From an uncultured Verrucomicrobia subdivision 3 bacterium (GTDB lineage Bacteria > Verrucomicrobiota > Verrucomicrobiia > Limisphaerales > UBA11358), in the NCBI GenBank assembly GCA_903827955.1, contig CAIKKJ010000200.1, forward strand, positions 1 through 54,880: a stretch of DNA of 54,880 nucleotides, in the 5' to 3' direction. The notes under the pieces were generated by a model. The model was given only the letters and a program-made list of their open reading frames with translations, was not told where the DNA came from and made no database searches. Every line of letters begins with the position of its first letter. The stretch's first letter is position 1. The translations under genes were made by a program, and so were the position numbers. Below are positions 5,307 to 54,814 of the stretch, piece by piece.

Positions 5307-5387
5307 TTGTTTTTATTATTTTTACGTTTCTAACAAAATGCTGTTTATTTTCTTGTGGGCATTTTGTTTCTAAACAGATTTGTAGAA

Positions 5388-5990: not shown

Positions 5991-6005
5991 ATTTTTTGTT
6001 TATTA

Positions 6006-7103: not shown

Positions 7104-7113
7104 TTTAAAGGGA

Positions 7114-32985: not shown

Positions 32986-35088
32986 TTAGCCCGACCATTT
33001 CGCGCCCTTGGGCGGCAGGTAGGTGAATTTTCCCGCCATGCCGGACTGGACGCGCGCCTTGCGGCTCGTGTTGCCGACCGACGATGGTTTCACCAGATAG
33101 CGTTCGAGGTGCTGGCCGAACGCTTGCAGCACGTCGTCCGGCACGCCCTTGTCGTATTCAGCCTGCGCCAACCCATCCACCAGCCGCCGGATGGCGGCGC
33201 GGATGGCCCGCGCCTGTTTCTGCTCGCTCGCTTCCGTGCCGCGTGCGTGTTTCTTGGCCCACGCATCAATCTTTGCCAGTTCGCTCGTCGCTTCGTTTTT
33301 CTCTACGTCGGTCGCCTCGTCGTCATCCAGAACCGCTTGAAATTCCTGCCGCGATTTTTTCATCGCGGCCAGCGTGTCTTTGTCATCCGCCGACAGATTG
33401 CGCTGGCCTTCGATGACCGCATCACCCATCGCTTTTGCCGCCAGTTCCGAGGCATGAATGGGGTCCGGTGGCGGATTCTTGAGCAGATAGGCGGTGTAGT
33501 GCAGTCCTTTTTCATCGGCCAGAAAACGGGTTTCACCCTGAAACACCAACTGCCAACCCCGATGCTCTTTCCGCAGCAGGTTCCCGTTCACCGCCGCGAC
33601 GGGCACGATTTTTTCCACGACTTTCGTCACCGCCGGCAACGACGCCGGGGACTGCGATTCAATCACCGTGCGCAGCAGCGAATCCGGCGGCAGTGTCCGT
33701 TCCATGATGGCTTGCGAGTTTCGCTGGATCATGATTTGCAGCGCGTCGGTGACTTCTTTCGCGTGCCGCTTGTGCATCGCTAAAATCCGTTCCGCCACGT
33801 TGGCCGGTTTCCCCTCGACATAGCGCAGCACCCGCATCACTTCGGGATTGTTCGTGACGAACTCCGCCACGTCCGTCAGTGCCTTGCACTGGATGGCTTT
33901 TTCCAGATAGGCCGCACCCATGATTTTGTCCTCGTCCTTCGGGCGCGATTCTGTGAACACGTCCAGCCCGTATTGTCCAATCGGGTCATATTGATCCGCC
34001 TTCGCGGCGATGACTCCAAACCGCCGGTCAATGCACTGCGAACACACGCCGCAATGTGTGTGTGCGTTCGTGGTTTCCCAGGTGTGCGCGCAGCTCCGCG
34101 AGGGCGCAATCAGTTCGCCGCAGTTGTGGTCCAGAATCTTTTTCACCACTTCGCCTTTGGTGAGCCACAGGAACGGATTTTCCACCGTGAACTTTTCTTC
34201 GGCCAGCAGCGTCAGCAATTCCTGCAATCCGGCCAGCACGCGCGGATGCGTCGTGCGCGTCGCGCGCCCGCCCACCACTTGCGCGCACACCGGCAGGTTA
34301 AGGCTCACCACGCCGTTTTCGTAAAAGCACAGTTTGCGGAGTCCCAGCATCATGGCCACCGTCGCGCCCAGCGCGGCATACAGGAACGACCGCGCCCGCT
34401 GCGTGTATTCCTTGCCCAGCTCTTTTTCCTTGTTGATCTCCACGCGCAGTTGCACCGGCTTGATGTCCCCGGCCTTGTCCAGCAGCCCGCGCATCAGCTC
34501 GTCATATTTCCGTTTGAATTTCGGCGTGGATTGGTGATTCACCAGCGCCACTTTTTTCTTTTGGCCGATGATTTCCTCGATGGCTCCCGCCAGCGAGTCC
34601 AGCCCGCCGGAAAACATCATCACTTGTTCTGGCTTCTGGCGCGGCGCGGTGCCGGTGTCGAAATCGAAATAATTTTGCAGCGGCGGCGCGTCCGTCGCCG
34701 CCATGAAGGTGAACTCGTAAAAATCGTCCGACAGAAACCCCAGCGTGTCTTGCAGGACTTTTTTTAACTGCGCTTGGTTCCACATCGCCGGCTTGCGCAC
34801 GGGAATGTGAAAGTGCAGCCGTCGCCGCCAGTTCGCGCCCAGCGTTTCTACGTCATACGCCCCGCGTCGGAACGCCTGGTCGCCGCAATAGACATACGTC
34901 GCGATTTCCAGCAGGTCATGAAACTGCGGCGGGATGCTCTTGAATAGCTGCTCGTGCAGATCTTCGATCTTCAGCCGCACGTTGCAATCCCTGCGGGTTT
35001 CCCACAGGTTCAGCGCCACGGTTTTCACGTCGCCGCCGCCGGTTGGCGCGGCCACGCCGCCACAAACGATATGATGTTCAGTTGCCAT
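32986..35088 (-). CDS. QueC-like (QatC-type) ATP-dependent synthetase with extra C-terminal domain
   Basis: The 700-residue protein has a PP-loop SGGLDS (160-165) and a Cys cluster SCAHTW...HCGVCSQC (about 332-352) as in 7-cyano-7-deazaguanine synthase QueC. It is three times longer than QueC and has a specific N-terminal region (1-150). Its C-terminal part (about 510-690) contains GWQLVFQGETRFLADEKGL, which resembles a winged-helix domain found in regulators. Long QueC relatives occur in Qat and type IV CBASS defence systems. The start overlaps the upstream gene by 11 bp, so both are translated together. Role inferred from context and family knowledge. Confidence 0.75.
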   Translation of the reverse strand: MATEHHIVCGGVAAPTGGGDVKTVALNLWETRRDCNVRLKIEDLHEQLFKSIPPQFHDLLEIATYVYCGDQAFRRGAYDVETLGANWRRRLHFHIPVRKPAMWNQAQLKKVLQDTLGFLSDDFYEFTFMAATDAPPLQNYFDFDTGTAPRQKPEQVMMFSGGLDSLAGAIEEIIGQKKKVALVNHQSTPKFKRKYDELMRGLLDKAGDIKPVQLRVEINKEKELGKEYTQRARSFLYAALGATVAMMLGLRKLCFYENGVVSLNLPVCAQVVGGRATRTTHPRVLAGLQELLTLLAEEKFTVENPFLWLTKGEVVKKILDHNCGELIAPSRSCAHTWETTNAHTHCGVCSQCIDRRFGVIAAKADQYDPIGQYGLDVFTESRPKDEDKIMGAAYLEKAIQCKALTDVAEFVTNNPEVMRVLRYVEGKPANVAERILAMHKRHAKEVTDALQIMIQRNSQAIMERTLPPDSLLRTVIESQSPASLPAVTKVVEKIVPVAAVNGNLLRKEHRGWQLVFQGETRFLADEKGLHYTAYLLKNPPPDPIHASELAAKAMGDAVIEGQRNLSADDKDTLAAMKKSRQEFQAVLDDDEATDVEKNEATSELAKIDAWAKKHARGTEASEQKQARAIRAAIRRLVDGLAQAEYDKGVPDDVLQAFGQHLERYLVKPSSVGNTSRKARVQSGMAGKFTYLPPKGAKWSG

Positions 35089-35866
35089 GTTTTCGTGCTC
35101 GTGCCGCCAGTTCCAGGGTCATTTTCCGAAACGCCACCCAGCCGAAGCCTTCGGCTTTTTCGCGGGTGATTTCGCCCGCGCCCAGCCAGCGTTGTTTGGA
35201 ATACCACTCCGCCGCGAAGACCTTGACGATTTCTGACGACTCCTGGCAGTGCGTTTTCATCGCCTGCGTGAACTGTCCCATTTGGTCGGTCGTCGCAAAC
35301 CGCTGGCCTTCGCCGAGGTGCGTCCCCAGCGTGCGCGTCAAGTAGGTGTCCAACAGCCCGTTCGTCAGGCTGCCCACGAAGTTTTGGAAAAATTTCCCGA
35401 AGTTCCCCGGCTGTTTCAGTTTTTTGAGCGCCGCCGACACATCATCGCGGGACGGTTCAAACAGCGACGGCAGATTTTGTTTCAGCAGTTCGGTGACCGA
35501 TCCCACCAGCGCCCGTTGCGCCACTTCGGCAAAATCGGAGCGGCCATTCGTGGCGTCCACCCGTTTGTCAAATTCCTCGCCGATGGTCATGACCACGTCC
35601 ACCAGCGAAGTGTTTTCGGAAATCGTCAAACCTGCCGCCGCCAGTTCCGCCGCCGGGTTTGGACGACTCCCCGCCAGCGACAGTTGCATGAGCAGGCGCA
35701 TCGCCTCCCGAAATCCCGCGTCGTCACGCACCCGCGCAAAGGTCTTGCCCGCCGCCACCAGCACCGCGTCGGCCACCGCCGCCTCGTTCGCGCCGTTCGC
35801 CACAAGCGACACCACACCCTGCCACTGTTTCGTGGCTGGCAGCGTGCCGATTCTGCTGTGTCCCAT
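35078..35866 (-). CDS. QatB-like partner protein of the QueC-like enzyme
   Basis: The 262-residue protein starts MGHSRIGTLP; the ATG at 35866 is the first in frame, so removal of Met would expose Gly. The rest is helical (for example DDVSAALKKLKQPGNFGKFFQNFVG, about 150-175). In Qat systems a small protein precedes the QueC-like enzyme, and work on related systems points to modification of an exposed N-terminal Gly by QueC-like enzymes. I infer a similar pair here; sequence similarity to QatB itself is not proven by eye. QatA- and QatD-like genes are absent next to it. Confidence 0.6.
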   Translation of the reverse strand: MGHSRIGTLPATKQWQGVVSLVANGANEAAVADAVLVAAGKTFARVRDDAGFREAMRLLMQLSLAGSRPNPAAELAAAGLTISENTSLVDVVMTIGEEFDKRVDATNGRSDFAEVAQRALVGSVTELLKQNLPSLFEPSRDDVSAALKKLKQPGNFGKFFQNFVGSLTNGLLDTYLTRTLGTHLGEGQRFATTDQMGQFTQAMKTHCQESSEIVKVFAAEWYSKQRWLGAGEITREKAEGFGWVAFRKMTLELAARARKHGN

Positions 35867-36162: not shown

Positions 36163-39100
36163 ATGTCCAAACGGTTTTTCACCAACGAAGGCGAGAATAC
36201 GCTGCTGAAAAAGTTTGCCGGGGTGTTCGCACACAACCCCGACATTGAACGATTTGACGCGCTCGTCGGCTACCTTCGCGCGTCAGGTTATTTTGCGTTG
36301 CGCCCGCATCTGGAAAAAGTCCCGCTCATCCGTATCATCGTCGGCATTGACGTGGACGAACAGCTCGCCCGCCACCATCGCAAGGGGCTGCTCATGCTGG
36401 GCGACGCGGATAAAACCTTGGCCTTCGTCCGCGCCAAGCTCACCGAGGATGTGCAGGGCGCACCCTACCGGCGCGACATTGAGGAGGGCATCCGCCAGTT
36501 CGTCGCCGATGTCGCCTCCAAGCGTGTTGAAATCCGGGCGCACTCCACCAAAAAGCTTCACGCCAAGCTCTATATTTTTCTGCCGACTGGCTTTTGCGAA
36601 CACAAGCCCGGCGCAGTCATTACCGGCTCATCCAACCTCACCGCCGCCGGCTTGGGCGTCGAGGATGCCGCCACTAACTACGAGTTCAACGTCGTGATGC
36701 ACGATTACGACGAAGTCGTGTTTGCGAAAAATGAATTTGAAAAACTCTGGAGCGAGGGTGTTTCCGTTTTGCCCGAGGCGGTCAAGGGTGTCGTGCGCGA
36801 GAGTTATTTGCGGGAAGACCTTACGCCGTTTGAGCTTTACGTCAAATTCCTGATTGAATACTTCGGCCCGGCCATTGACTACGATCCCAATTCCGAGCGC
36901 GATTTGCCCAAGGGCGTCAAGTCTTTGAGCTATCAGGGCGACGCCGTGAACGACGGCTGGCTGAAATTGCAGAAGCACGGCGGTTTTTTTCTCGCGGACG
37001 TCGTGGGCTTGGGCAAGACCATCGTCGCCACGCGCATCGCCAAGAAATTTTATTATCACAACGGCTTTCCCAACCACCGTTCCCGCATCCTCATCATCAC
37101 GCCGCCCGCGTTGAAAGAGAATTGGGAAACGGAAATGGAACGGTTCGGCCTGGACGACGCCGTGAAGGTCTTGCACAACGGCAGCCTCCACAAGATTCGT
37201 GACCCGGAAAAATACGACCTCATCATCGTGGACGAGGCGCACAAGTTCCGCAATGACACCGCCGACGGTTACGACCTGCTTCAGAAATTGTGCAAGACTC
37301 GCACCAAGCAGCAGTTGCCCAGCGGCGAGTTCGCCCGCAAGAAAGTCATCCTGATTTCCGCCACACCGTTGAACAACCGGCCCGCCGACATCCGCAATCA
37401 GGTGTTGCTGTTTCAGGACGGCAAGGATTCCACCGTCATCGGCAACCTCCAGCATTTCTTCGCGCAGCGCATCAAGGAATACCAGGTCGCCACCAATCCG
37501 CTCAAGACGCCCGACCGCCAGGTCGCCCACGCCGCCGTCGCACGGATCTACGAACTCATCCGCGAACAGGTCGTGCAGCCGCTCACCGTGCGCCGCACCC
37601 GCACGGATTTGACCGAGGACAAGCGCTGGAATGCCGACCTCGTCGCGCAGGGCATCATTTTCCCCAAGGTGGAAAAACCGCGCCCGATTCTTTACCAGCT
37701 CGACACCGGTCTTGATGCGCTCTACGAACGCACCATCCGCCTGCTGGCGCTCCCGGACGGCGGCGGCGTGACTTACAACCGCTACCGCGCCATCGCATTT
37801 CTCTCTAATCCCGAACTGAAAAAGAAATACGAGCGTGCCGATCTTGTCGCCACGCAACTCGCCCGCATCATGAAGACGATGCTGGTGAAACGGCTCGACA
37901 GCAGTTTCGTCGCGTTCAAGAAAAGTCTCGGTCGTTTTCAGCAGGCGACGCAGGCCATGCTCACCATGTTCGAGCGCGGCACCATTTACATCGCGCCCAG
38001 CCTGCACGTCTCCGATTATATTCTCGAAGACCGTGAAGACGAGCTGATTGAAGCCATCGCTGCCGCCAGCGAAACCGATCCCACCATCACCGTTTGCACC
38101 ACCAAGGATTTTGCGCCGGAATTTCTCGTCGGCTTGCAGCACGACGGCAAGATTCTAAAGGAACTGGTGGACGCCTGGGAACAGGTTAAGACCGACCCCA
38201 AGCTGGATGAATTTCTCGCCTGCCTGCGCGGCGAAGGCGAACGCCCCAATCTGCTGGCGAAGCCGTTTAATGAAACCGGCAAGCTCGTCATTTTTTCGGA
38301 GGCGCGCGACACCACGCAGTATTTGACCGAACAACTCACCGCCGCCGGCTTCGGTCCGTTGCTGACCGTGGATTCCCACAACCGCAAGCATACCATGCCG
38401 GTCGTCCGCGCTAATTTCGATGCGAACGTCCCGATTGGCGACGCGGCCAATCGCAAAGATGAGTTCCACATTTTGATTTCCACGGAAGTTCTCGCCGAAG
38501 GCGTGAACCTCCACCGCGCCCACGTCATCGTGAACTACGATACACCGTGGAACTCGACGCGCCTCATGCAGCGCATCGGTCGCGTGAACCGCATCGGCAG
38601 CACCGCCAAGGCCGTCCACATTTTCAATTTCTATCCCACCACACAGGTGGATGACGACATTGATCTTCAACGCAAAGCGTTCCTGAAATTGCAGGCGTTC
38701 CACACCGCGCTCGGTGAGGACAGCCAGATTTATTCGCCCGATGAAGAGGTGGATAATTTTGGTTTGTTTGACCGCGCCATCGAAGAAGAGCGCGACGAAC
38801 GGCTCCGTTTCCTGTCCGAACTGCGCGATTTCAAGGACGCCAACGAGGACGATTTCCGTCGCATTCGCAACCTGCCGCTCCGCGCCCGCTGCGGTCGGAA
38901 TGACTCCGCGCAAAACGGCCAGACGCTCGCCTTCATCCGGGATGACCGGCGCGATGCGTTCTATCGCATCGCCGATGAACTTCACGAAATCGGCTTCGTC
39001 GAAATGGCTCGTGCCTTCCGTGCCGAAGTTTCCGAATCGGCGGCTCCGTTGCCGGACACGCACCACGAACAGGTGCTTGCCGCGCTGGAGGATTTCCGCA

Positions 39101-39480
39101 CCAAGCTCGCCGCCGACGCCGTGCGCGAACGGGCGGTGGACCACACCGCCGGCCCCAACGAGCAGAAGGCCATGCGTTTGCTCGCCGCTGCGCAGGGGAT
39201 GCCCAATGTCTCCGCCGCCGAACGGGCGTTGCTCGTCGCCGCGCAGCACGCCATCCGCGTCGCCAAGTTTCAGGATTTGTCGCGCAAGCTCAACGCGCTC
39301 CAGAAAGCCGTCGCCAAAAAACCCGTCACCACCGCCGCGCTGCTCGATAAAATGTTGGAGATCATCCGCACCTACCCGCTCGACGTGGCGGAATCCGATT
39401 CCGACGCCGCCGATGCGCCTGTCGTTGACCATAAATTTATCCCGCATATCATCTTGTCGGAATCTTTCACCACGAAATGA
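36163..39480 (+). CDS. PLD-like nuclease fused to SNF2-family helicase
   Basis: The 1105-residue protein begins with a phospholipase-D-like domain (about 1-200) with HAKLY (about 133) and ITGSSNLTAAGL (about 150-163). An SNF2 helicase follows: Walker A DVVGLGKTIVATRIA (about 277-291), DEAH box VDEAHKF (about 353), and a helicase-C region with LISTEVLAEGVNLHRA and QRIGRVNRIG (about 770-812). A long C-terminal part (about 850-1100) is helical. The PLD segment has one H-x-K, so nuclease activity may need dimerisation. It overlaps the methylase gene by ATGA. Similar helicase-methylase pairs belong to restriction-like and DISARM-like defence systems. Confidence 0.85.
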   Translation: MSKRFFTNEGENTLLKKFAGVFAHNPDIERFDALVGYLRASGYFALRPHLEKVPLIRIIVGIDVDEQLARHHRKGLLMLGDADKTLAFVRAKLTEDVQGAPYRRDIEEGIRQFVADVASKRVEIRAHSTKKLHAKLYIFLPTGFCEHKPGAVITGSSNLTAAGLGVEDAATNYEFNVVMHDYDEVVFAKNEFEKLWSEGVSVLPEAVKGVVRESYLREDLTPFELYVKFLIEYFGPAIDYDPNSERDLPKGVKSLSYQGDAVNDGWLKLQKHGGFFLADVVGLGKTIVATRIAKKFYYHNGFPNHRSRILIITPPALKENWETEMERFGLDDAVKVLHNGSLHKIRDPEKYDLIIVDEAHKFRNDTADGYDLLQKLCKTRTKQQLPSGEFARKKVILISATPLNNRPADIRNQVLLFQDGKDSTVIGNLQHFFAQRIKEYQVATNPLKTPDRQVAHAAVARIYELIREQVVQPLTVRRTRTDLTEDKRWNADLVAQGIIFPKVEKPRPILYQLDTGLDALYERTIRLLALPDGGGVTYNRYRAIAFLSNPELKKKYERADLVATQLARIMKTMLVKRLDSSFVAFKKSLGRFQQATQAMLTMFERGTIYIAPSLHVSDYILEDREDELIEAIAAASETDPTITVCTTKDFAPEFLVGLQHDGKILKELVDAWEQVKTDPKLDEFLACLRGEGERPNLLAKPFNETGKLVIFSEARDTTQYLTEQLTAAGFGPLLTVDSHNRKHTMPVVRANFDANVPIGDAANRKDEFHILISTEVLAEGVNLHRAHVIVNYDTPWNSTRLMQRIGRVNRIGSTAKAVHIFNFYPTTQVDDDIDLQRKAFLKLQAFHTALGEDSQIYSPDEEVDNFGLFDRAIEEERDERLRFLSELRDFKDANEDDFRRIRNLPLRARCGRNDSAQNGQTLAFIRDDRRDAFYRIADELHEIGFVEMARAFRAEVSESAAPLPDTHHEQVLAALEDFRTKLAADAVRERAVDHTAGPNEQKAMRLLAAAQGMPNVSAAERALLVAAQHAIRVAKFQDLSRKLNALQKAVAKKPVTTAALLDKMLEIIRTYPLDVAESDSDAADAPVVDHKFIPHIILSESFTTK

Positions 39481-42400
39481 ATTTAGCCGACTGCCAGGCC
39501 CAGTTTCAAAAAAAGTATAACCGGGAAAACTGGCACGCGCTGCTGCCGCAACTGCTTCCCGGCGTGGAGCTGTTTGCGTCGGCACAGGATTATCCGCTCA
39601 CCAACGACCGCGAGCGCACCATCGCCACCGCCCGCCGCCAGTTCGGCGCGGCCACGCTTGCCGATGGCAAACGCATCGCGTTTTACGAGATTGATGTCGC
39701 TGCCAAGGTGGACTTGCTCCGCAACCGCGTCGCCCTCCGCGAGATTGTCGCCCGTTGTATTGATGAAGTCAGCGCGCACGCCGTGCTCGCGTTCTTTGTC
39801 CATCCCGACAAATCCATTTACCGCCTCACCTACGCCGCCAAGGAAAGCCGGCTGAGCGACGACCTCAAAATCCACACCGAGCAGACCGCCACCCGCCGCT
39901 ACACCTATGTGCTGGGGCCGGGCGAAACCCGCCGCACTGCCGCGTTGCGGCTGGCCGCGCTTTCCGAGAAACGCGATGCCGCCACGCTGAAGGATGTCAC
40001 CGACGCGTTTTCCGTCGAGAAGATCAACCGCGAATTTTTTGACACCTACAAGGCGCACTACCAGAAATTTTGCGACCACCTGCTTGCCGGTGACGTGCCG
40101 GTCAAGGTGTTCAAGCTGCCCTTGCGCGGCCTGTCCGACGAGGCCCGCGACCACGCGCTCAAACCCGTGCGCGACTTTGTCAAAAAATTGTTGGGCCGCC
40201 TCGTCTTTCTCCATTTCCTCCAGAAAAAAGGCTGGCTCGGTTGTCCCGCCGGCGTGGCCAATTGGAAAAATGGCGATCCCGATTTTCTCCGCCAGCTCTA
40301 CGTCACCGCGACGGCTGCCGACCAGCAACGGTTTCATTCCCGCCGTCTCGTGCCGCTGTTTTTCGACACGCTCAACCGGCGGCGCAAGGATGACTTGTTC
40401 GCCATCACCGGCACGCGCGTGCCGTATCTAAACGGCGGTTTGTTCGAGCGCGACTTTGACGGCGTGGAGCAGATTGATTTTCCCGCCACCCTGTTCGCCG
40501 ACGTGCTCGATTTTTTTGGTCAGTATAATTTCACCATTGATGAGAACGATCCCGACGACCACGAAATCGGCATTGACCCGGAAATGCTCGGTCACATCTT
40601 TGAAAACTTGCTGGAGGACAACAAGGACAAGGGCGCGTTCTACACCCCCAAGGCTGTCGTCCAATACATGTGCCAGCAGAGCCTTATTCACGCGCTCGTC
40701 GGCCATTTTCCGAATGATCCCGCCGCCCGCGTCGAGATTGAAAAACTCATCCGCACCAAGGAACCCATTGATGCCCGTCAGGATTCCTGGCTCGCGTTGC
40801 ACGCCACGCAGTTGACCAAGATTCTCGACGACCTCCGCATTTGCGACCCCGCCATCGGCTCCGGCGCGTTCCCCATCGGCCTGCTTCAGGAGATTTACTG
40901 GACCAAGCTCGCCATCAATTCCGGCCTCGACCGCGCCAAGGCCAAGCGCAATATCATCCAGAATTGCATCTACGGTGTGGACATTGACGCCGGCGCGGTG
41001 GAGATCGCCCGGCTGCGCTTCTGGCTCGCGCTCATCGTTGAGGAAAAAAATCCCGTGCCGCTGCCTAACCTCGATTACAAGATCATGCAGGGCAATTCCC
41101 TGCTGGAAAGTTTCGAGGGCATTGACTTGGGCAATCTCACCGGCAAGCAAAGCCACACGGTTCAGTTGCTCGGCACCGAGCAGACCGAGCTGGGCCTCAA
41201 GGCCGTGTCCACCGAGTTGACGGTGGAGTTTGCCGAGGGCAAGCAGGCCGAGATCACCAGCCTCATCAGCGGCTACTTTGACCAGGACGACCCGGAGCTG
41301 AAACACAAGTTGCACGCCAAGATTGACGGCCTCGTGCTCGGCCACATTGAATACAATCTGGATTTGCACGAGGAACGGATTGAAGCCGCGCTGGACAACG
41401 CCCGCAAGGAACTCAAAAGCAAACAGGCGCGCGCGCGTGGCTACGAACCCACCAAGCGGGAGGCCGGTCGCCTTGCCGAACTGGAGGCGCAACTGGCCGA
41501 GGTGGACCGCAAGCGGGCGGCACTGGCGGCATTGCAGGAAAAACCGGAGCGCCCTTTTTTCCTCTGGCATCTATATTTCCAGAACGTGTTTGTTCGTGGC
41601 GGGTTCGACATCGTCGTCGCCAATCCACCTTACGTCCGGCACGAATCCATCAAGGAGCAAAAAGTCGCGTTGCAAGCTGAGCCTTACGAATGTTACGACG
41701 GCACAGCAGACTTGTTGGTTTATTTTTACGAGTGTGCGGTCAAAAAACTGCGCGCCGGAGGTGTGTTGACGTTCATCACCTCGAATAAATTTTACCGCGC
41801 CGGCTATGGTGAAAAACTGCGTGGTTATCTTGCCCGCGAATTGACCCTGCACCGGCTCATAGATTTTGGCGACGCGCCAGTGTTTGAAGCGATTGCCTAC
41901 GCCTCAATCCTAGAAGGCACCAAAACCGCACCGCCTGCCAATTCCGCCGCGCTGGCCTACACATGGGAACAGGGAATGCCACTCGATCGGATTGAATCCA
42001 TCGTTGCAACAAAAGGTCAGGCTATTTATCAAAGCGAGTTGAAGCCAGATGCTTGGCGGCTTGAATCGCCCGTTGTGTTGCGGCTGCTGGAAAAACTTCG
42101 CAAAGCAGGGAATCCGCTTGGTGAATATGTCAAAAAGCGATTCTATCGCGGTATTCTGACTGGCTTGAACGAAGCGTTTATCGTTGATCGCGCTACTCGT
42201 GACCAGCTCATCGCAGGAGACAAATCATCGGCAAAAGTTCTTAAACCTTTCCTGCGTGGTCGCGACGTAAAGCGTTGGCAGACGGAATTTGCGGAACAAT
42301 ATCTCATTAAGATCGAGTCTTCAGAAAACAAGAGTCATCCGTGGTCTGGAGAATCCGAAAAAGAAGCGGAGAAAATCTTCGCCAAAACTTTTCCTGCAAT

Positions 42401-43733
42401 CCACAAGTGGTTTGAAGGATTTCGTTCCGCACTCAACAAAAGAGAAGACCAAGGTAAGTTTTTTTGGGAATTACGTTCGTGTGCTTATTGGAAAGAGTTC
42501 GAGCAGCCGAAGTTGGTCGTTCCAGCAATTTCTGGTGCGGTGAATGTGTCTTTGGACTGCGAAGGATTTTTTAGCAACAACAAGACGAGCATTTTTGTTT
42601 GCGACGATGCCGCTTACGTTTCGGCAGTTGTGAACTCGACCGTAGCCTTTTGGTTTACTCGTCAGGTGTTTGCCACAAAGCAAGGTGGATTCTACGACTT
42701 CGAGCCGCGTTACTCATCGCAATGGCCGATTCCCAACGCCTCGTCGGCCTTGAAATCCAAGTTGAGCGGTTTAGTTGAGCGTGCCATCACAGCCAAACGC
42801 GCGGGCAACGAGGCGATAGTGCATCAGTTGGAGCGGGAAATTGACGAAATAGTTTTCCGTCTTTTTGAACTCACGCCGGAGGAAATCGAACTGGTGCAGT
42901 CCGCTCATGTCGAGTCTGCTCCCGGCAAAACACAATCCGGCTTGTTAAATATTTTGTCGCCGGAACTCAACGCGGTATCTCCGTATTTCACCACCGCCGA
43001 CCGAACCACCATTTACGACCGGGTGCTGGCCGAACTCAAAAAATCGTCGCCCTATTTCACCACCGCCGCCATCACCCGCCGCGCGCAGGAGTTGGACCCC
43101 GGAATCAATCTCGATTCGTTAGCCGTGTATCTCTCCGGGGCCACGGCCAATGGCCTGGTTCACGACGCCGGTCGCGGCTGGTATTCCCGCTTGAGTGAAC
43201 CCGTGCCGCTGGATGCCAAGCCCGTCGCCAAACTTATCCGCGCTGTCGAGAAGGCGTTCCCGCTGCTGGACTTCACCGTCTGGTCCACCGCCCAGATCAA
43301 TCCGTGGATGCACCACCTGCTGGCCCAGCCCGTCACCTTCCTTTACGCCCCGGCAGACACCCTCGAATCCGTCGGCGACACGCTCCGTGAACAGGGCTGG
43401 GAAGTGGCCGTGAACCCAGCGCCCAGCGCCGGCCCCAAAGCTGTCCGCCCCGGCGAGAAAATGGTCGTCCTCCGGCCCGCCCTGTCCAAGCAGCCGCCGG
43501 GCGACGGGCGGCAGGCCACCATCGAGAAAATCCTCGTGGATCTCATCTCCGAAGCCCCCCGCCTCTCCCTCATGGATGCCTCCGAGGCGCAGGGAGTCGC
43601 CACCGCCATCCTGAACCAATTTCTTGTGCAAATAGCTGTTTTACAGCGATATGCCGATTCAAGAGCGGTCAAAATCAAAGAAATAGAAGCGATTAACCAA
43701 CGCCAAACAGACGCCTCTATTGGCGTTAGTTAA
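39477..43733 (+). CDS. Eco57I-type adenine methylase fused to an AbiEi-like (DUF6577-like) domain
   Basis: The 1418-residue protein has an N-terminal region (about 1-250) typical of large Eco57I methylases. The catalytic core has motif I DPAIGSGAFPIGLLQE (about 458-473) and motif IV NPPYVRHE (about 715). A target-recognition and C-terminal region runs to about residue 1150. From about 1165 to 1400 an extra domain appears: winged-helix-like SPYFTTAAITRRAQELDPG (a repeat of SPYFTTA precedes it), then FPLLDFTVWSTAQINPWM and a segment ending LVDLISEAPRLSLMDASEAQG. This part matches my memory of DUF6577, an AbiEi-like antitoxin. The AbiEii-type toxin gene begins 5 bp later. Confidence 0.85.
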   Translation: MNLADCQAQFQKKYNRENWHALLPQLLPGVELFASAQDYPLTNDRERTIATARRQFGAATLADGKRIAFYEIDVAAKVDLLRNRVALREIVARCIDEVSAHAVLAFFVHPDKSIYRLTYAAKESRLSDDLKIHTEQTATRRYTYVLGPGETRRTAALRLAALSEKRDAATLKDVTDAFSVEKINREFFDTYKAHYQKFCDHLLAGDVPVKVFKLPLRGLSDEARDHALKPVRDFVKKLLGRLVFLHFLQKKGWLGCPAGVANWKNGDPDFLRQLYVTATAADQQRFHSRRLVPLFFDTLNRRRKDDLFAITGTRVPYLNGGLFERDFDGVEQIDFPATLFADVLDFFGQYNFTIDENDPDDHEIGIDPEMLGHIFENLLEDNKDKGAFYTPKAVVQYMCQQSLIHALVGHFPNDPAARVEIEKLIRTKEPIDARQDSWLALHATQLTKILDDLRICDPAIGSGAFPIGLLQEIYWTKLAINSGLDRAKAKRNIIQNCIYGVDIDAGAVEIARLRFWLALIVEEKNPVPLPNLDYKIMQGNSLLESFEGIDLGNLTGKQSHTVQLLGTEQTELGLKAVSTELTVEFAEGKQAEITSLISGYFDQDDPELKHKLHAKIDGLVLGHIEYNLDLHEERIEAALDNARKELKSKQARARGYEPTKREAGRLAELEAQLAEVDRKRAALAALQEKPERPFFLWHLYFQNVFVRGGFDIVVANPPYVRHESIKEQKVALQAEPYECYDGTADLLVYFYECAVKKLRAGGVLTFITSNKFYRAGYGEKLRGYLARELTLHRLIDFGDAPVFEAIAYASILEGTKTAPPANSAALAYTWEQGMPLDRIESIVATKGQAIYQSELKPDAWRLESPVVLRLLEKLRKAGNPLGEYVKKRFYRGILTGLNEAFIVDRATRDQLIAGDKSSAKVLKPFLRGRDVKRWQTEFAEQYLIKIESSENKSHPWSGESEKEAEKIFAKTFPAIHKWFEGFRSALNKREDQGKFFWELRSCAYWKEFEQPKLVVPAISGAVNVSLDCEGFFSNNKTSIFVCDDAAYVSAVVNSTVAFWFTRQVFATKQGGFYDFEPRYSSQWPIPNASSALKSKLSGLVERAITAKRAGNEAIVHQLEREIDEIVFRLFELTPEEIELVQSAHVESAPGKTQSGLLNILSPELNAVSPYFTTADRTTIYDRVLAELKKSSPYFTTAAITRRAQELDPGINLDSLAVYLSGATANGLVHDAGRGWYSRLSEPVPLDAKPVAKLIRAVEKAFPLLDFTVWSTAQINPWMHHLLAQPVTFLYAPADTLESVGDTLREQGWEVAVNPAPSAGPKAVRPGEKMVVLRPALSKQPPGDGRQATIEKILVDLISEAPRLSLMDASEAQGVATAILNQFLVQIAVLQRYADSRAVKIKEIEAINQRQTDASIGVS

Positions 43734-43738
43734 ACCCT

Positions 43739-44842
43739 ATGTTTCCAGCCGCCGTCTTCCAACCTGAGTGGCTAAACCAGCAGCGGCAACAGCTTGGCAA
43801 GTGCGATCCCCGGATATTGGAAAAGTGCGTTCACGCCCTGACGCTGCTGGGGTATCTGGTGGAAAGCGGCTTGCCCTTCATTTTCAAAGGCGGCACCAGT
43901 TTGTTGCTGCATATGCCCGAGGTGCGGCGGCTCTCGCGTGACATTGATATTGTGTGCGGGCGTCCCGCCGCCGAGGTGGATGCCGTCGTCCGGGCCATCG
44001 GCGCGCGGGCGCCGTTTCTTCGTTTGCAGGAAGACGACCGGGGCGTCCGTGGTCTTCCCCAGCGGCGGCACTTCAAATTTTTCTACCGTTCGGCTCTGGC
44101 CGGCAGCGTCGAGGAAGAACTGCTGCTCGATGTGGTCGAAGAAGCCCGCGAAGTCCACACGCTCGTCACGCGCCCCATCCGCACCAGCTTCCTGATTCCC
44201 GAGGTGGAACGTCTGGTGCGCGTGCCGACGATTGAAAGTTTGCTCGGCGACAAGCTGACGGCCTTCGCGCCGCATACGACGGGCGTGCCATTTTATTCCG
44301 CCAAGAGTGGCGAGGAACAGTTGCAACAAGTCGCCAAGCAATTATTCGACGTGGGCGTGCTGTTCGATGTCGCGACTGATTTTGACGCCGTCGCCAAATC
44401 CTACACGGCCGTCTCCGCCCAGGAATCAGAATACCGTGGCAACCAGCACAGCCGGGAAGCCGCGCTGGAGGACACCTGGCAGGCTTGCATCGCCCTCACC
44501 GCCAGCAAGCCCGCCATCCTCGAAAAATATCCCGAATCAAAATTGTTGCACGAAGGACTCGACAAGATGCGCGGGCACCTGACCACACCGGCCTATGTGC
44601 AAGACCTGAAAGCTCGCCGGACATTGGCCTCCAAAGCAGCGGTTCTCGCCGCCCACTTGCGCGCGGGCGTGCCGTTCGATTTTGGAACCATGCGCTACAC
44701 GGGCAATGCGGCACAAATCGAAATGCTGCGTGCCGCCACGTTGAATGGCAAACCATTGTCATGGATTGACGGTGTAAAAGGCGCGAACGCGGAAGCCTAT
44801 TATTATTGGTATCAATCCATCCAGTTGAACCCACCGCAGTGA
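43739..44842 (+). CDS. AbiEii-type nucleotidyltransferase toxin
   Basis: The 367-residue protein has the AbiEii/AbiGii signature: FKGGTSLLLH (about 50-59) followed by LSRDIDIVC, the nucleotidyltransferase GG/GT-S and the catalytic D-x-D. Another conserved point is ESLLGDKLTAFAPHTTG (about 160-180). AbiE-type toxins are GTP-binding nucleotidyltransferases that block growth when phages infect. It lies 5 bp after the methylase-antitoxin fusion. No separate antitoxin gene is needed if the fused domain serves as one. Confidence 0.85.
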   Translation: MFPAAVFQPEWLNQQRQQLGKCDPRILEKCVHALTLLGYLVESGLPFIFKGGTSLLLHMPEVRRLSRDIDIVCGRPAAEVDAVVRAIGARAPFLRLQEDDRGVRGLPQRRHFKFFYRSALAGSVEEELLLDVVEEAREVHTLVTRPIRTSFLIPEVERLVRVPTIESLLGDKLTAFAPHTTGVPFYSAKSGEEQLQQVAKQLFDVGVLFDVATDFDAVAKSYTAVSAQESEYRGNQHSREAALEDTWQACIALTASKPAILEKYPESKLLHEGLDKMRGHLTTPAYVQDLKARRTLASKAAVLAAHLRAGVPFDFGTMRYTGNAAQIEMLRAATLNGKPLSWIDGVKGANAEAYYYWYQSIQLNPPQ

Positions 44843-49597: not shown

Positions 49598-50467
49598 TTA
49601 CACCCCTTCCGCCTTGGCGATGGTTTCAAATTCCGGCAGCAGTTCGCCGTGATGCTCGCGCAGATGTTTCGCCACCCGGCTGTTTTCTATTAGGCGTTTG
49701 ATGTAGCCGCGCGCCAGTGTCAGGCTCATCATGTTTTCCGTGTAGTTGGCCTCGATGCCTTTGAAATCTTTTTCCAGCGCTTCCATTTCCCGCTCCATCC
49801 GCGCCAGTTCTTCCGCCGTCATGCCAGCTTTTTTCTTCGGCTCTTCCGGCGAGAGCATTTGATCCTTCGGCGTCGCCAGCGCCAGCGCCTCGGCATACAC
49901 CTTGGTAAAGTTGTTGGCCGAGACCATCACTTCCGCGATTTCAATTTGCCGCAGTCCCGTCACCTTGCGCAACAACCGGATGGCCGCCGCCGTAATGTGC
50001 TTGTCTTTGAGCAGTTCGACCGCTTCCGCGTTGATGCCGTCCAACAGGTTCATCAGGGTGTTGACGGTTTCCAGCGGCATGGACAGCGCCTTTGCAATGC
50101 GTTCCGGCTTCACGCCATTTTTGACCGCCTTCACAATCATCTTGTGCGCCTGGATCGGCGGCAGCCGGTTGACGCGGGCGTTGTAGGTGTAGCGGTCGTC
50201 TTCGCTGGCGACGATGATTTCCGCCATCTTCCAGCCCAACTGTTTCAACGCCAGCAGCCGCAGATGTCCGTCGAGCACCAACCAGTGGTCGCCGCTCTTT
50301 TGCGGATAGACCATCAGCGGTTCAATCAGCCCGAGTTCCGGCAGCGAATCCAGAATGGCTTCGTAGCGCCGGATGTTGTGCGGATCTTTGATGACCTTGG
50401 TGGGCAGCAACTTCGCCACCTCCACCGTCTGCTTCCGCATTTCAAAGGCGATTTTGGCTGCGCTCAT
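49598..50467 (-). CDS. ParB-like protein 2
   Basis: The 289-residue protein has the ParB N-terminal pattern: an early LPTKVIKDPHNIRRYEAILDSLPELGLIEPLMV, then WLVLDGHLRLLALKQLGWK and a C-terminal helical domain with MTAEELARMEREMEALEKDF. It belongs to the pair of ParB/RepB-like proteins that accompany a large serine recombinase in several mobile elements. It shares an ATGA overlap with the next ParB-like gene. Its role may be DNA-bound assistance to the recombinase rather than partitioning. Confidence 0.75.
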   Translation of the reverse strand: MSAAKIAFEMRKQTVEVAKLLPTKVIKDPHNIRRYEAILDSLPELGLIEPLMVYPQKSGDHWLVLDGHLRLLALKQLGWKMAEIIVASEDDRYTYNARVNRLPPIQAHKMIVKAVKNGVKPERIAKALSMPLETVNTLMNLLDGINAEAVELLKDKHITAAAIRLLRKVTGLRQIEIAEVMVSANNFTKVYAEALALATPKDQMLSPEEPKKKAGMTAEELARMEREMEALEKDFKGIEANYTENMMSLTLARGYIKRLIENSRVAKHLREHHGELLPEFETIAKAEGV

Positions 50468-51354
50468 GCCGCCTCCTGCGGTTTGTCCGTGACGCGCCGC
50501 CAGATGTCCTTGGGCATCGTCGCCACCTTTTCCGCCCGCAACAGCGTCACAAAATGTTCATCCGCCAGCAGCCGCCGGAACGCTCCCACTACGAACATCA
50601 ATCGTTCCTCGCAGTAGCGCGCTTTTTTTACCATCAATCGTTGCTTCTGACTTTCGCGGCGGTAGGCGTTCACCAGACTGTCGGCGCTGGTTTTTACCTG
50701 AGTTGTCATGCGCGGCCCGTTGCCCCGCTGCTTGCCAATCAGCCGCCGCCGGTTCATCACGTTTCGGATCATCCGCAGGGCGTGTTGTGTCAGTTTCTTC
50801 TCCTCGCACGCCTTCAATAATTCGCGCTGCATTTCAATGCCTTCCGTGCGCGCGATTTCCACCGCCACGGTGATCGGAATCCGCCCGTTTAAGACGGCGT
50901 CCAGTAACCGCAGCTCTCCGGATTTTTTCAGGGATAGGAGGTCATGAATGGTGGTGGTGTCCATGTCAATCCGGGCGCTGATTTGTTTCAGGGTTAAACC
51001 CTCACTTCTCAGCCGTTCGATTTCCGTCAGCATTTCAATCGGCGCGGGATTGCGCCGCGCCATGTTCTCCGCGAGGCTGCGCAACAGCCGGTCCTCTTTG
51101 CTGATTTGCACTACGACCGCCGGAATTTCCTTGTAGCCCAGCGACCGGAAAGCCTCCATGCGTCCTTGTCCGCAGACCAGGTCATACGTCGGGCCTTCGC
51201 CCTCATCCGCCGCCCGCTCGCTGACCTGAATCGGTTTTTTCAAGCCGAGGTTCTTGATGCTTTGCACAATCAGCACGAACTTCTTCGGGTCACGGTGCCG
51301 GGGATTCAGGATGCGGATTTGCTCCAGCGGAATCATTTTAATTTCGTCATTCAT
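50464..51354 (-). CDS. ParB-like protein 1
   Basis: The 296-residue protein reads IPLEQIRILNPRHRDPKKFVLIVQSIKNLGLKKPIQVS and YDLVCGQGRMEAFRSLGYKEIPAVVV, the ParB N-terminal box; ENMARRNPAPIEMLTEIERL follows as in ParB/RepB HTH domains. It overlaps the serine recombinase gene by 8 bp and the second ParB-like gene by 4 bp. The triad is a fixed unit in many genomes. Confidence 0.8.
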   Translation of the reverse strand: MNDEIKMIPLEQIRILNPRHRDPKKFVLIVQSIKNLGLKKPIQVSERAADEGEGPTYDLVCGQGRMEAFRSLGYKEIPAVVVQISKEDRLLRSLAENMARRNPAPIEMLTEIERLRSEGLTLKQISARIDMDTTTIHDLLSLKKSGELRLLDAVLNGRIPITVAVEIARTEGIEMQRELLKACEEKKLTQHALRMIRNVMNRRRLIGKQRGNGPRMTTQVKTSADSLVNAYRRESQKQRLMVKKARYCEERLMFVVGAFRRLLADEHFVTLLRAEKVATMPKDIWRRVTDKPQEAA

Positions 51355-52897
51355 GCACGTCCTCCAAATTGAAGCGTTCCATCAGGCTGAAAAAATAATC
51401 CAGGCTGTCGCACCGGTAGGTGTCGAGGTAGATGCCGTTGGCTTCCGCCAGTCGCAGGTTTTCCCACGTCATGTCCAGCGCCGGCAACAGGTAATAGTCT
51501 TGGATGTTCTCATTGGTGAAATCCATCCGAACGGCGATGGTGATGTCCGGCTTCAGTCCGGCATCCAGCCGTATCAGCCAGCGCGACGAACCGGCGGGCG
51601 TTTGCGTGTGCCGGCACAGGACAATGGAGACGCGCAACTCGCCGTTCACCAGCAGCAAGTCTGTGGCATCATCCGTGATTGCCGTCCCGCCTAGCTCCAT
51701 GATTTTCTGTCTCACCGAAGCGACGATGTCCGGGCGTAACTGGCGCAGCCGCCGGTTTTCCTCGACGAAACTGAAATCAATGCCGGGATCGTAGCCGATA
51801 AGTTTGTAGGCACTGATGAGCGACCCGAATCGGTTCCCAAACGCCGCGCTCGACGGCAGCCCTTCCGCCTCGTCTATCAGGATGCCCGAAATGCGGCCAT
51901 GCTGTTTGAACAGGTCGCGCAGCTTTTCCAGCATTTCTTCGTTCGTCAATTTCTGGCTCCGCGCCAGAATGATTTCCCGCGCTCGTAAAAACATTTCCCG
52001 CTCGACGATTCCCTCATAAGCGCCTTCCTTCCGAACCCATTTGTCCGGTGGATTGTTGACGTGCTTCTTCTTCAGCTTGCAAGAGGTGCGGTGATACACA
52101 TTGTTGCCGATGTATTTTTCGTTAATCAGCACTTGATGCACCGTCGCCCGATTCCATTCCCGGCCAAAGTCGGTTTTGACGCCTTGTGCATTGAGGCTGG
52201 CGGCAATCTCGGTTTCCAATTTCCCTTCGGTGACGAACGCTTGATACATCCAGCGCACGGTTTTGATTTCTTCGTCCGGCCCCGGCATCAGAATCACGCG
52301 GTCGGTCTGGATGCTTTTGTGTTCGCCCATCTTGAGCTCGCCTTTCCGGTTGCCGCCGCCGTCAATCAGCACCCGCCGCAGACCGAACCCCGCCGTGCCG
52401 CCTTGCCGGTAGCCGAGTGTCACCAGCCGGCACGCACCTTGAAAAACTTTGGTGGAAAGCTCGCGGCTGTATTCGCCCGCCATCATCCGCTTCACGCCTT
52501 TGATGATGGTGCTGACCGGCGTGCCGTCGTTCTCGAATTGTTCCGCGCAGTAATGCACGGACACGCCCGCTCGTCGGCAGACAAATTCATAATGCGCGCT
52601 TTCATCCGCATCTTGAAACCGCCCCCACCGGCTCACGTCATAGACCAGGATGGTGGAATAATCGGCCTTGCCCTCCTCGACATCGCGAATCATTTGCGCC
52701 AGCGAATCCCGCCCCTCGATGTTCAGCCCGCTTTTCCCGTCATCGGAATAATCCTTCACGATCTCCAGCCCGCGCAGGTTCGCATACGCGAGAATCACAT
52801 CCCGCTGGTTGCTGGTTGAATACTGCTGATGCTCCGTGGACATGCGCACATACAGCGCCGCCCGCTTGGCTGCAAGTTGCGCGTCATCCGGCTTCAT
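51347..52897 (-). CDS. large serine recombinase
   Basis: The 516-residue protein starts with the resolvase catalytic domain: ALYVRMSTEHQQYS with the nucleophile Ser at residue 20, then YDVSRWGRF (about 84-92). A recombinase domain with RATVHQVLINEKYIGNNVYH (about 245-265) follows, with a long C-terminal coil region. Residues for strand exchange are present. With two ParB-like partners and a small Cys-rich protein upstream, it forms a known type of site-specific recombination module. Target sites are not identified here. Confidence 0.9.
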   Translation of the reverse strand: MKPDDAQLAAKRAALYVRMSTEHQQYSTSNQRDVILAYANLRGLEIVKDYSDDGKSGLNIEGRDSLAQMIRDVEEGKADYSTILVYDVSRWGRFQDADESAHYEFVCRRAGVSVHYCAEQFENDGTPVSTIIKGVKRMMAGEYSRELSTKVFQGACRLVTLGYRQGGTAGFGLRRVLIDGGGNRKGELKMGEHKSIQTDRVILMPGPDEEIKTVRWMYQAFVTEGKLETEIAASLNAQGVKTDFGREWNRATVHQVLINEKYIGNNVYHRTSCKLKKKHVNNPPDKWVRKEGAYEGIVEREMFLRAREIILARSQKLTNEEMLEKLRDLFKQHGRISGILIDEAEGLPSSAAFGNRFGSLISAYKLIGYDPGIDFSFVEENRRLRQLRPDIVASVRQKIMELGGTAITDDATDLLLVNGELRVSIVLCRHTQTPAGSSRWLIRLDAGLKPDITIAVRMDFTNENIQDYYLLPALDMTWENLRLAEANGIYLDTYRCDSLDYFFSLMERFNLEDVHE

Positions 52898-52942
52898 GGT
52901 CTGGCTGCTTGAAAATCATCAATCGCCATAGGATAACCATTA

Positions 52943-53242
52943 TCACCTCGCCAACCTATCATCTCTCCGTAACACAACTTTAGGCCGGTGAAATCTGGCG
53001 AAAGCGCGTCTCCAATGTTTTGGTTTTCCCGCGCGCCAGCGTCGGACACGCTCTTGTTCTTTGGCCGGATCAGCCAGCTTCCGGTTGCCGGGCTTGTCCT
53101 TCCACTTCTTTTGGCTTGCCGCCTTGCTAACCCGTTTGCAGCGCGGGCGGGCACAGTATTTTTGGCGGAAGGCGGCTTTGGGGTTGGGGTGAAACCATTG
53201 CTGGCAGCACCGGCATTTTCTTTTACGGCGATGTTGTTTCAT
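52943..53242 (-). CDS. small Cys-rich (zinc-ribbon-like) protein of the recombinase module
   Basis: The 99-residue basic protein has KCRCCQQWFHPNP and QKYCARPRCKR near its N-terminus, which provide four or more Cys for a zinc-binding knuckle, followed by a Lys/Arg-rich tail. Small proteins of this plan often precede the serine recombinase and ParB pair. It should be a DNA-binding accessory. It is 45 bp from the recombinase start. Confidence 0.6.
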   Translation of the reverse strand: MKQHRRKRKCRCCQQWFHPNPKAAFRQKYCARPRCKRVSKAASQKKWKDKPGNRKLADPAKEQERVRRWRAGKPKHWRRAFARFHRPKVVLRRDDRLAR

Positions 53243-53407
53243 GCGCCGTCACTCAACGAGGAGTGCGGCGCCTGGCTCAAGATTTACTCATCGCCAATAC
53301 ATGCCACCAAATTATCACACGACCTGGACAACGCTTCTTCATCCGAAAATTATTTCCTTCGGATTTTCGTATTGTCCCGGCAGTTGGTAGCCAGTCCGGC
53401 TCGGACT
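53243..53407. other. short gap before the integrase, nothing recognised
   Basis: The gap of 165 bp between the Cys-rich gene and the integrase stop holds no gene or clear repeat. It may contain the promoter of the recombinase module. Confidence 0.4.
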
Positions 53408-54676
53408 TCATTTCTTGCCCGGCGGCATGAGGCCAAACCACGCCTTTGCCGCTTCCGGCCGCACCAGCTCGCGGTAATGCTGGAAAATCATTTGCGGCGA
53501 GTTGCCCGCCTCCAGCGAAACCTTGGCGACGTCTTGCGTCTCCGCCACCCGATAGCTGATATAAGAATGCCGCAGCGCGTTGCGCTTCCATGTGAACACC
53601 GCCGTCGAATCCTTCTGCTTTAATTTTTTATCCACCACCGCCGCCAGCTTATCAATTTGGTTCGACGTGTTGACGTAATCGCAAATGTGTCCGCTGGCCT
53701 TGCGGTAGGGTTTCAGCCACCGTTTCAAATTGTCCTGAATCGGCACCAGCCGACGGCTGGCGGTCTTGGCCTTGTTCGCCTTAACCTCGATGAAGCCGTC
53801 GTCCATCCGCACTTCTGCCCAATCCAGCCGTTGCAGTTCCGCATGGCGCAGACCGGCAAAAGCGCCGATAGCCAGAAACGGAATCAGGCGCTTGTCGGCG
53901 ATTTTCAACACCGCCGCCATTTCTTCTGGCCGGAAAATTTCAATCTCCCCGTTCTCTTCCCGCGCCTGCGCGACATCCGTGATCTCCACCGAGCCTTTCA
54001 CCAGGTAGCCGCGTGACACTGCGAAGTTGACCAGCGTGCCGATGGCCCGTCGAAAATTATTCCGCGACCGGCCGGACACCGCCGCCGACTTTTTGCCGTC
54101 GTCGGCTTCCACCGTCAGACCGCGCAGAAAATCTCCAATGTCCGCGCTCGTCAGAAAGGTGATGGAGCCGGGAAACTTTTCGGCAAACCGTCCCAGCCGC
54201 CATTTCAAATCGGAAGTGTAATACTTGCTCATCCCGTCCGTCGTCTTGGCTTCAATCATTTCGGTGACCACATTCGGCACGAGCATCTTGGGCATTTGGG
54301 GCGGATTGCGTTTCACATAAAACCGCGCCGCTTCCACCAGCGAACCGCCCTCCAGCAGCGCGTGAGCCTGGGCAAACTGCATCGCGGCCATTTCCAGCGG
54401 CACGCCCGTCGGCTTCAACGCTTCAATGGCGCGGATGTAGGAAAGCCGGTCGCCGCTCGTCAGCGTCAGGACGTTGACCTCGCCCGTGGAAAGCTTGTTG
54501 GCGACCGTTTCCGCCTCCGTCGTTGCCAGCCCGAGATCGGCGAAAGTCTTCCGCACCCGCTGGTCGCCGAGATAGTAGGAAACCGTGTAGGCATCGCATC
54601 CGCGTGAAGGTGTGCGGTAGATTTTGACGATGGTATGACCCCGTTTAACCGTGATGGGAAACTTCGGCTTTGACAT
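53408..54676 (-). CDS. tyrosine recombinase integrase
   Basis: The 422-residue protein has an N-terminal arm and core-binding region (to about 220) and a catalytic domain with LRHAELQRLDW (catalytic Arg, about 274), a conserved Lys in EVKANKAKT, RHSYISY (about 368) and SPQMIFQHYREL with the Tyr nucleophile (about 399). It starts 64 bp from tRNA-Gly and points away from it. This is the typical arrangement for integrases that use the 3' end of a tRNA gene as their site. The active site looks complete. Confidence 0.92.
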   Translation of the reverse strand: MSKPKFPITVKRGHTIVKIYRTPSRGCDAYTVSYYLGDQRVRKTFADLGLATTEAETVANKLSTGEVNVLTLTSGDRLSYIRAIEALKPTGVPLEMAAMQFAQAHALLEGGSLVEAARFYVKRNPPQMPKMLVPNVVTEMIEAKTTDGMSKYYTSDLKWRLGRFAEKFPGSITFLTSADIGDFLRGLTVEADDGKKSAAVSGRSRNNFRRAIGTLVNFAVSRGYLVKGSVEITDVAQAREENGEIEIFRPEEMAAVLKIADKRLIPFLAIGAFAGLRHAELQRLDWAEVRMDDGFIEVKANKAKTASRRLVPIQDNLKRWLKPYRKASGHICDYVNTSNQIDKLAAVVDKKLKQKDSTAVFTWKRNALRHSYISYRVAETQDVAKVSLEAGNSPQMIFQHYRELVRPEAAKAWFGLMPPGKK

Positions 54677-54686
54677 AAGCCAATAC

Positions 54687-54708
54687 TGTCAGGAAACTGT
54701 CAGGAGTT
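54687..54708. promoter_or_regulatory. candidate integrase arm-binding sites, right end
   Basis: Two TGTCAGGA copies (54687 and 54698) are followed by GTT, matching the left-end pair at 15487-15506. They lie between the integrase start and the attachment site, as arm sites usually do. Confidence 0.5.
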
Positions 54709-54740
54709 CAAGAAATAACTGCAAATAGCCCAATAAAACA

Positions 54741-54814
54741 TGGAGCGGGTGAAGGGAATCGAACCCTCGTCTCAGCCTTGGGAAGGCCACATTCTACCAT
54801 TGAACCACACCCGC
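54741..54814 (-). tRNA. tRNA-Gly (anticodon CCC)
   Basis: The minus strand reads GCGGGTG at the 5' end, pairing with CACCCGC at the 3' end, followed by an encoded CCA (plus strand TGG at 54741). The anticodon stem TGGCC/GGCTG encloses the loop TTCCCAA, giving anticodon CCC, which reads GGG. A normal T-arm (GGGTTCGA) is present. The 3' end serves as the attachment site of the element. Confidence 0.95.

Follow-up and report, generated by a model that had tools for sequence, protein, structure and literature searches.

The qatBC-like Gene Pair

The window analyzed here is a stretch of 54,880 nucleotides (contig CAIKKJ010000200.1) from an uncultured Verrucomicrobia subdivision 3 bacterium, and all positions refer to this whole stretch. 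At 32986-35866, on the - strand, it carries two genes related to qatB and qatC of the qatABCD defense system. Both open reading frames (ORFs) were read where the original prediction had placed them. The first encodes a partner protein of 262 residues that starts with Met-Gly (N-terminus MGHSRIGTLPATKQW), and the second a QueC-family enzyme of 700 residues. Each has an ATG start, and the two ORFs overlap by 11 bp. Comparison of close pairs gives omega values of 0.03-0.22, which indicates purifying selection on the two genes. The features of the pair are given in Table 1.

More than 100 relatives of the pair were found, mostly in phage- or prophage-like contigs. Relatives with the same gene order occur in genomes of the same class, and in Verrucomicrobiota, Planctomycetota (Gemmataceae, Phycisphaerales), Burkholderiales, Bacteroidota, Chloroflexota, and IMG/VR contigs. 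On a plasmid of Leptospira noguchii the pair has transposases next to it, and the surrounding annotation lists no phage genes. The recurrence of the pair with the same order and N-terminal motif in many loci, under purifying selection, is far beyond chance. A search of an open-access library, which covers few subscription papers and preprints, returned no description of a QatC fused to an extra domain at its C-terminus or of a two-gene pair whose partner starts Met-Gly-His (MGH).

Table 1. Features of the qatBC-like pair, in window positions.
Feature	Position	Strand	Basis
QatB-like partner, all-alpha, first gene of the pair	35078..35866	-	ORF, AlphaFold2 (AF2) model, QatB fold
N-terminal substrate-like tail, partner residues 1-15 (MGHSRIGTLPATKQW)	35822..35866	-	Family conservation, AF2 model
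QatC-like QueC-family enzyme, second gene of the pair	32986..35088	-	ORF, profile and fold matches
QatC part, residues 1-478: N-terminal extension, QueC core (about 150-377), C-terminal helices	33655..35088	-	VIA-align
SGGLDS pyrophosphate-binding motif, residues 160-165	34594..34611	-	Motif alignment
TRTTHP, residues 277-282	34243..34260	-	Motif alignment with canonical QatC
Zinc site, C333...C346-G-x-C349-xx-C352-xx-R-R356	34021..34092	-	Motif alignment
Extra C-terminal domain, residues 500-700, after a disordered linker (480-496)	32989..33591	-	52-sequence model

The Enzyme

The enzyme matches the PADLOC model for QatC (172.8 bits, E 2.8e-51), the NCBIfam QatC model NF041925 (203.3 bits, under the 280-bit equivalog cut-off), and Pfam QueC (E 2.7e-07). 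Against TIGR00364, the model for canonical QueC (preQ0 synthase), it scored 25.6 bits and did not reach the equivalog cut-off of 150.3. A sequence search of the PDB gave convincing matches to the solved QatC chains and to nothing else (4e-27). A structural model made from 52 sequences has a predicted local distance difference test score (pLDDT) of 87.5 and divides the protein at the linker into residues 1-478 and a further domain from about residue 500. Residues 3-478 align by VIA-align with residues 2-457 of QatC, which is the full QatC length, at Z 35.2 and 24% identity. The Z scores to the Cap9 core (PDB 9nto) and to QueC (PDB 3bl5) are 13.0 and 13.2, respectively. A fold search with the whole model covered mainly residues 150-433.

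The motif set of QatC (SGGxDS, TRTxHP, and CGxCxxCxxRR) is kept. As originally predicted, the SGGLDS motif and the Cys cluster are intact: FSGGLDS is read at residues 159-165, and C333, C346, C349, and C352 belong to a cluster that ends in CGVCSQCIDRR. T277 and T279 of the enzyme align with T278 and T280 of QatC. In QatC this Thr pair, which defense requires, takes the position held by Tyr/Asp in QueC and Cap9 (PMC13279940). The invariant columns of the 52-sequence alignment all fall within the QatC part, and the extra domain reported earlier lies beyond it, after about residue 500. By predicted fold and motif alignment, the enzyme is a complete QatC plus a fused domain.

The Partner Protein

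Searches with the partner sequence against the PDB, Pfam, PADLOC, and NCBIfam gave no match. The AF2 model, made from 20 family members (pLDDT 80.7, predicted template modeling score 0.82), is all-alpha. For this model the QatB chains 9y01_A and 9y02_A rank first and second in the PDB (Foldseek probability 1.00). VIA-align to crystallized QatB gave Z 12.5 over 209 of 215 residues; the next unrelated chain had Z 4.8. The fold of the partner had been proposed as a check on its kinship with QatB, and the fold that came back from it was that of QatB. Identity to QatB is 13%, so the kinship is one of remote homology, and a profile comparison (hhalign) gave a probability of 71% over 103 columns. It is the predicted structure, and not sequence search, that clearly reveals the QatB fold.

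Residues 1-7 are the sole segment of the model with pLDDT <50 and are predicted to be disordered; the first helix begins at residue 13. Within the partner family M1, G2, and H3 are invariant, save H3 in 2/72, and R5, G7, L9, P10, and W15 are near-invariant. A scan made with the enzyme only retained 80 viral loci, 72 of them with a readable partner N-terminus. Gly2 is present in all 72 (70 MGH, one MGN, one MGT). A second count gave MGH in 95/95 partners, but MGH had itself been used in the first scan and in choosing the start, which makes this figure partly circular; the 72/72 for Gly2 is the less biased of the two. In a non-redundant set, residues 1-15 are better conserved than the rest of the protein, with mean consensus frequencies of 0.72 and 0.45, respectively. 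Gly2 of QatB is essential, as is a tail segment with a conserved Pro and Trp (PMC13279940), and P10 and W15 of the partner family are conserved at a comparable place. The canonical QatBs among the fetched loci start MGTS.

The Fused C-terminal Domain

The C-terminal domain of the enzyme varies by clade. It is an OmpR-type winged helix (PF00486) in relatives L131, L143, and L137, and a DpnII/MboI-type nuclease (PF18742; E 1.9e-07 to 1.2e-09) in five relatives, from Pedobacter, Cyclobacteriaceae, Chloroflexota, Phycisphaerales, and Leptospira. In the nuclease clade the domain carries a PD...E-x-K pattern. The remaining type is that of the window, which had no match in Pfam, including PF00486. 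Its predicted structure runs from three strands through helices, among which a helical hairpin is inserted, to two terminal strands, an order that corresponds to an OmpR winged helix with an added helical hairpin. When its profile was compared with those of the OmpR-like domains in relatives, the probabilities were 0.7% and 6.5% (the latter by hhalign), neither of them significant, so a winged helix in the window's domain is something we infer. A wider set of relatives is profile-related to those bearing PF00486 at a probability of 99.7%, but this set includes those relatives. The possible winged helix of the original prediction is thus present in some relatives and, for the window itself, is suggested by predicted topology. 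That the enzyme ends in a different domain from clade to clade would fit an effector or DNA-targeting role.

The window-type domain was also found in proteins that have no QatC part, again with no Pfam match (L033 7108-7911, L034 6364-8091, L035 99-1718, L036 6138-7625, and L037 6369-7430). It occurs once in this form in the same genus, at 46% identity, and is a mobile domain. One locus, L050 (2950-5034), groups with the nuclease clade in its QatC part; its nuclease, however, lacks the catalytic residues, and the tail differs.

Absence of QatA and QatD, and Lineage

The original prediction noted that the ATPase QatA and the nuclease QatD are missing beside the pair. Neither was found among the window neighbors scanned: those on the + strand are a PLD/SNF2 helicase, a type IIG restriction enzyme, and AbiEii, and those on the - strand are phage genes. 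KAP NTPases (QatA) and TatD DNases (QatD) were each found in 0/50 viral records, many of which are fragments, by searches that were positive in control genomes. No KAP NTPase was found in the host genome, which is 95% complete. The earlier suggestion that the pair may use a neighbor's ATPase is therefore not supported; with no KAP NTPase in the host genome or the viral records, a borrowed QatA-type ATPase is unlikely, and we rejected it.

The other suggestion, a minimal two-gene system, gains support from the large number of conserved pairs that occur with neither a KAP ATPase nor a TatD nuclease. Such a system is plausible given that QatBC without QatA and QatD suffices against lambda vir (PMC13279940). 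Our findings suggest that this laboratory observation, that the QatBC core stands without QatA and QatD, also holds in nature. In a 2026 survey, only roughly one in three genes of the QatC cluster had qatA and qatD as neighbors (PMC13329287), and the MGH lineage may account for part of the rest. In the tree the MGH lineage is set apart from canonical QatC, the 12 canonical rows forming one side of a supported branch (97/91). The tree gives no direction of gene loss or gain, and the term "reduced," first used for the pair, is not borne out.

Other variants were seen in the fetched loci. A different QatC-like variant is present in L008 (1228-3338), L012 (1276-3383), and L069 (about 5000-7473), with enzymes of 487-495 residues in L008 and L012. 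Its partner starts MAADGEDF or MPTDGQDF and has no Gly2, and a gene for an XRE-type regulator lies downstream. A Mesorhizobium plasmid (L068 4177-6607) carries a QatC-like gene, a 229-residue partner starting MGSVTLRGG, and an ASCH-domain gene. This is a further distant two- or three-gene variant on a very long branch of the tree.

Comparison With Known Systems

The closest known system is the QatB-QatC core of qatABCD from P. aeruginosa (PDB 9y01/9y02; PMC13279940). In both, the gene order is B-C, and the partner has the same fold and a Gly2 followed later in the tail by Pro and Trp; both enzymes have a complete QatC architecture with the Thr/Thr pocket, the SGGxDS motif, and the zinc motif. 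Canonical QatBC is a 1:1 complex that needs Gly2 and the Pro/Trp segment of QatB and the Thr pair of QatC (PMC13279940). The window pair differs in having no QatA and no QatD, in the MGH start of its family where canonical QatB has MGTS, in a tail of about 10 residues where many QatBs have 30-90, in the 200-residue fused domain, in the sub-cut-off NCBIfam score, and in its separate clade. The pair would work like QatBC, but we did not file it as qatABCD because QatA, QatD, MGTS, the long tail, and a score at the NCBIfam cut-off were all looked for and not found.

Cap9-CdnD of type IV CBASS (cyclic oligonucleotide-based anti-phage signaling system; PDB 9nto; PMC11996544) also combines a QueC-family enzyme with a Met-Gly partner, and the Cap9 core superposes on the enzyme. 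Its partner is a CD-NTase (cGAS/DncV-like nucleotidyltransferase) that starts MGGS, whereas that of the window has the QatB fold and starts MGHS. The window enzyme has the QatC extensions and Thr/Thr; Cap9 has the Tyr/Asp pair that recognizes 7-carboxy-7-deazaguanine (CDG). Canonical QueC (PDB 3bl5) shares the Rossmann core, SGGxDS, and the four-Cys zinc site, but the window enzyme is three times longer, is without the CDG-binding Tyr/Asp, lies in a prophage, and has a protein partner. The pair is a QueC-family (Qat-type) variant distinct from qatABCD, type IV CBASS, and QueC, with a presumed role in defense.

Prophage Setting

Below the pair, the - strand encodes a RusA-like resolvase, an exonuclease, a primase/helicase, terminase subunits, a portal, a scaffold, and a major head protein. 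The order of the pair, a helix-turn-helix (HTH) gene, exonuclease, replication genes, and terminase is also found in genome G249, and parts of it in G244, G022, and L039. A serine recombinase is encoded in 36/50 viral records and upstream of the pair in 50/80 loci. The pair is prophage-borne.

Proposed Function and Alternatives

We consider it probable that the pair is a prophage-borne two-gene module of the QatBC type that modifies Gly2 of the partner, acts on phage DNA via the fused domain, and protects the lysogen. By analogy with QatBC and Cap9-CdnD, Met1 of the partner would be removed, and the exposed Gly2 would enter the QatC pocket of the enzyme. At the expense of ATP, the enzyme would then activate a small molecule with a carboxyl group and join it to the amine of Gly2. 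Like QatC, the enzyme has Thr/Thr in place of the Tyr/Asp that reads CDG, so the group that it attaches may be something other than deazaguanine. CDG could be at hand in the host, whose genome (G000) carries QueD-like and QueE-like genes. Such genes are also present in G249 (a single-contig genome), G022, G244, and G047, and canonical QueC (TIGR00364) above the cut-off was found in none of the five. The modified complex would use the fused domain to act on the DNA of infecting phages, by binding in the window's clade and by cutting in the nuclease clade. The fused domain would in this way take the place of QatA and QatD, and the lysogen would be shielded from other phages.

Several points weigh against this reading. 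Anti-phage activity, the modification, and its chemistry are all carried over to the MGH lineage by homology, and attempts to reconstitute the reaction failed even with canonical QatC (PMC13279940). The basic patch by which P. aeruginosa QatC binds QatB has no visible conservation in the enzyme. The partner's tail, short and starting MGHS, is unlike that of many QatBs. No DNA-binding family gave a significant profile match to the C-terminal domain of the window enzyme. Sequenced phage isolates contained no match to a partner of the MGH family, so the label "viral" rests on IMG/VR predictions and synteny.

The main alternative, which we regard as unlikely, is a phage regulator, i.e., an enzyme with a DNA-binding-like domain, tuned by its modified partner, that controls prophage genes such as a lysogeny or replication operon. 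The winged-helix domains of several relatives would suit such a role, as would the conserved place of the pair beside an excisionase-like HTH gene and replication genes in Verrucomicrobial prophages, and the serine integrase near the pair in most viral records. However, integrase-side sites are also a usual place of accessory defense cargo, other clades have the DpnII/MboI nuclease domain instead of a winged helix, and the copy on the Leptospira plasmid sits apart from annotated phage genes. The characterized relatives with a Met-Gly partner, QatBC and Cap9-CdnD, are defense systems. Less likely again is abortive infection, in which the pair would sense infection and kill or arrest the host through a toxin-like fused domain, with no direct recognition of phage DNA. 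Many two-gene defense modules act by abortive infection, and the fused nuclease of one clade could cut host DNA; the window's own domain, however, has no toxin signature.

Two further alternatives are very improbable. The intact ATP and zinc sites of the QueC family would be in keeping with an enzyme that supplies a 7-deazaguanine precursor with which phage DNA or tRNA is modified, but the CDG-recognizing Tyr/Asp is replaced, QatC does not complement delta-queC (PMC13329287), and a QatB-fold protein is paired with the enzyme wherever the upstream gene is readable; a transglycosylase of the TGT (tRNA-guanine transglycosylase) or DpdA type was found in 0/50 viral records, which disfavors a role in phage DNA modification. 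If the pair were what is left of a complete qatABCD operon in decay, the lack of QatA and QatD would be explained, and one relative does have a stop-interrupted QatC (L009/L023, G047:C28:178864-180215; partner MGHERVG..., possibly a decayed copy or a sequencing error), but the same two-gene organization is common to many loci, the lineage is separate from canonical QatC, and selection on it is purifying.

If the pair is such a defense module, it bears on what a 2026 structural paper gives as open questions, namely how QatBC stops phages and which group QatC attaches to QatB (PMC13279940). A natural two-gene version with a tail of about 10 residues and a fused effector-like domain would be a simpler system in which to find the modification. 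The nuclease-fused clade would offer a direct readout, DNA cleavage dependent on Gly2 of the partner and on ATP. More tentatively, and with the odds somewhat against it, the lineage could represent a phage-carried QueC-family class in which a non-deazaguanine tag on the N-terminal Gly of the partner licenses a swappable DNA-acting domain (winged helix or restriction-type nuclease) fused directly to the modifying enzyme, with sensing, modification, and effector held in two proteins.

Other Genes in the Window

The + strand neighbors at 36163-44842 are, in order, the PLD/SNF2 helicase, the type IIG restriction enzyme, and the AbiEii nucleotidyltransferase; none of them was seen in the related loci compared. 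An AbiEi-like/DUF6577 C-terminus (residues about 1183-1408) is fused to the type IIG enzyme, and the restriction enzyme is thereby joined to a type IV toxin-antitoxin pair. Farther along, a 516-residue protein (51347-52897) has an N-terminus that, from its sequence, resembles a serine recombinase. A ParB-like gene (50464-51354) has a neighbor at 49598-50467, and a tyrosine integrase (53408-54676) adjoins a tRNA-Gly (54741-54814). The gene set at 49598-54814 may represent two integrated elements.
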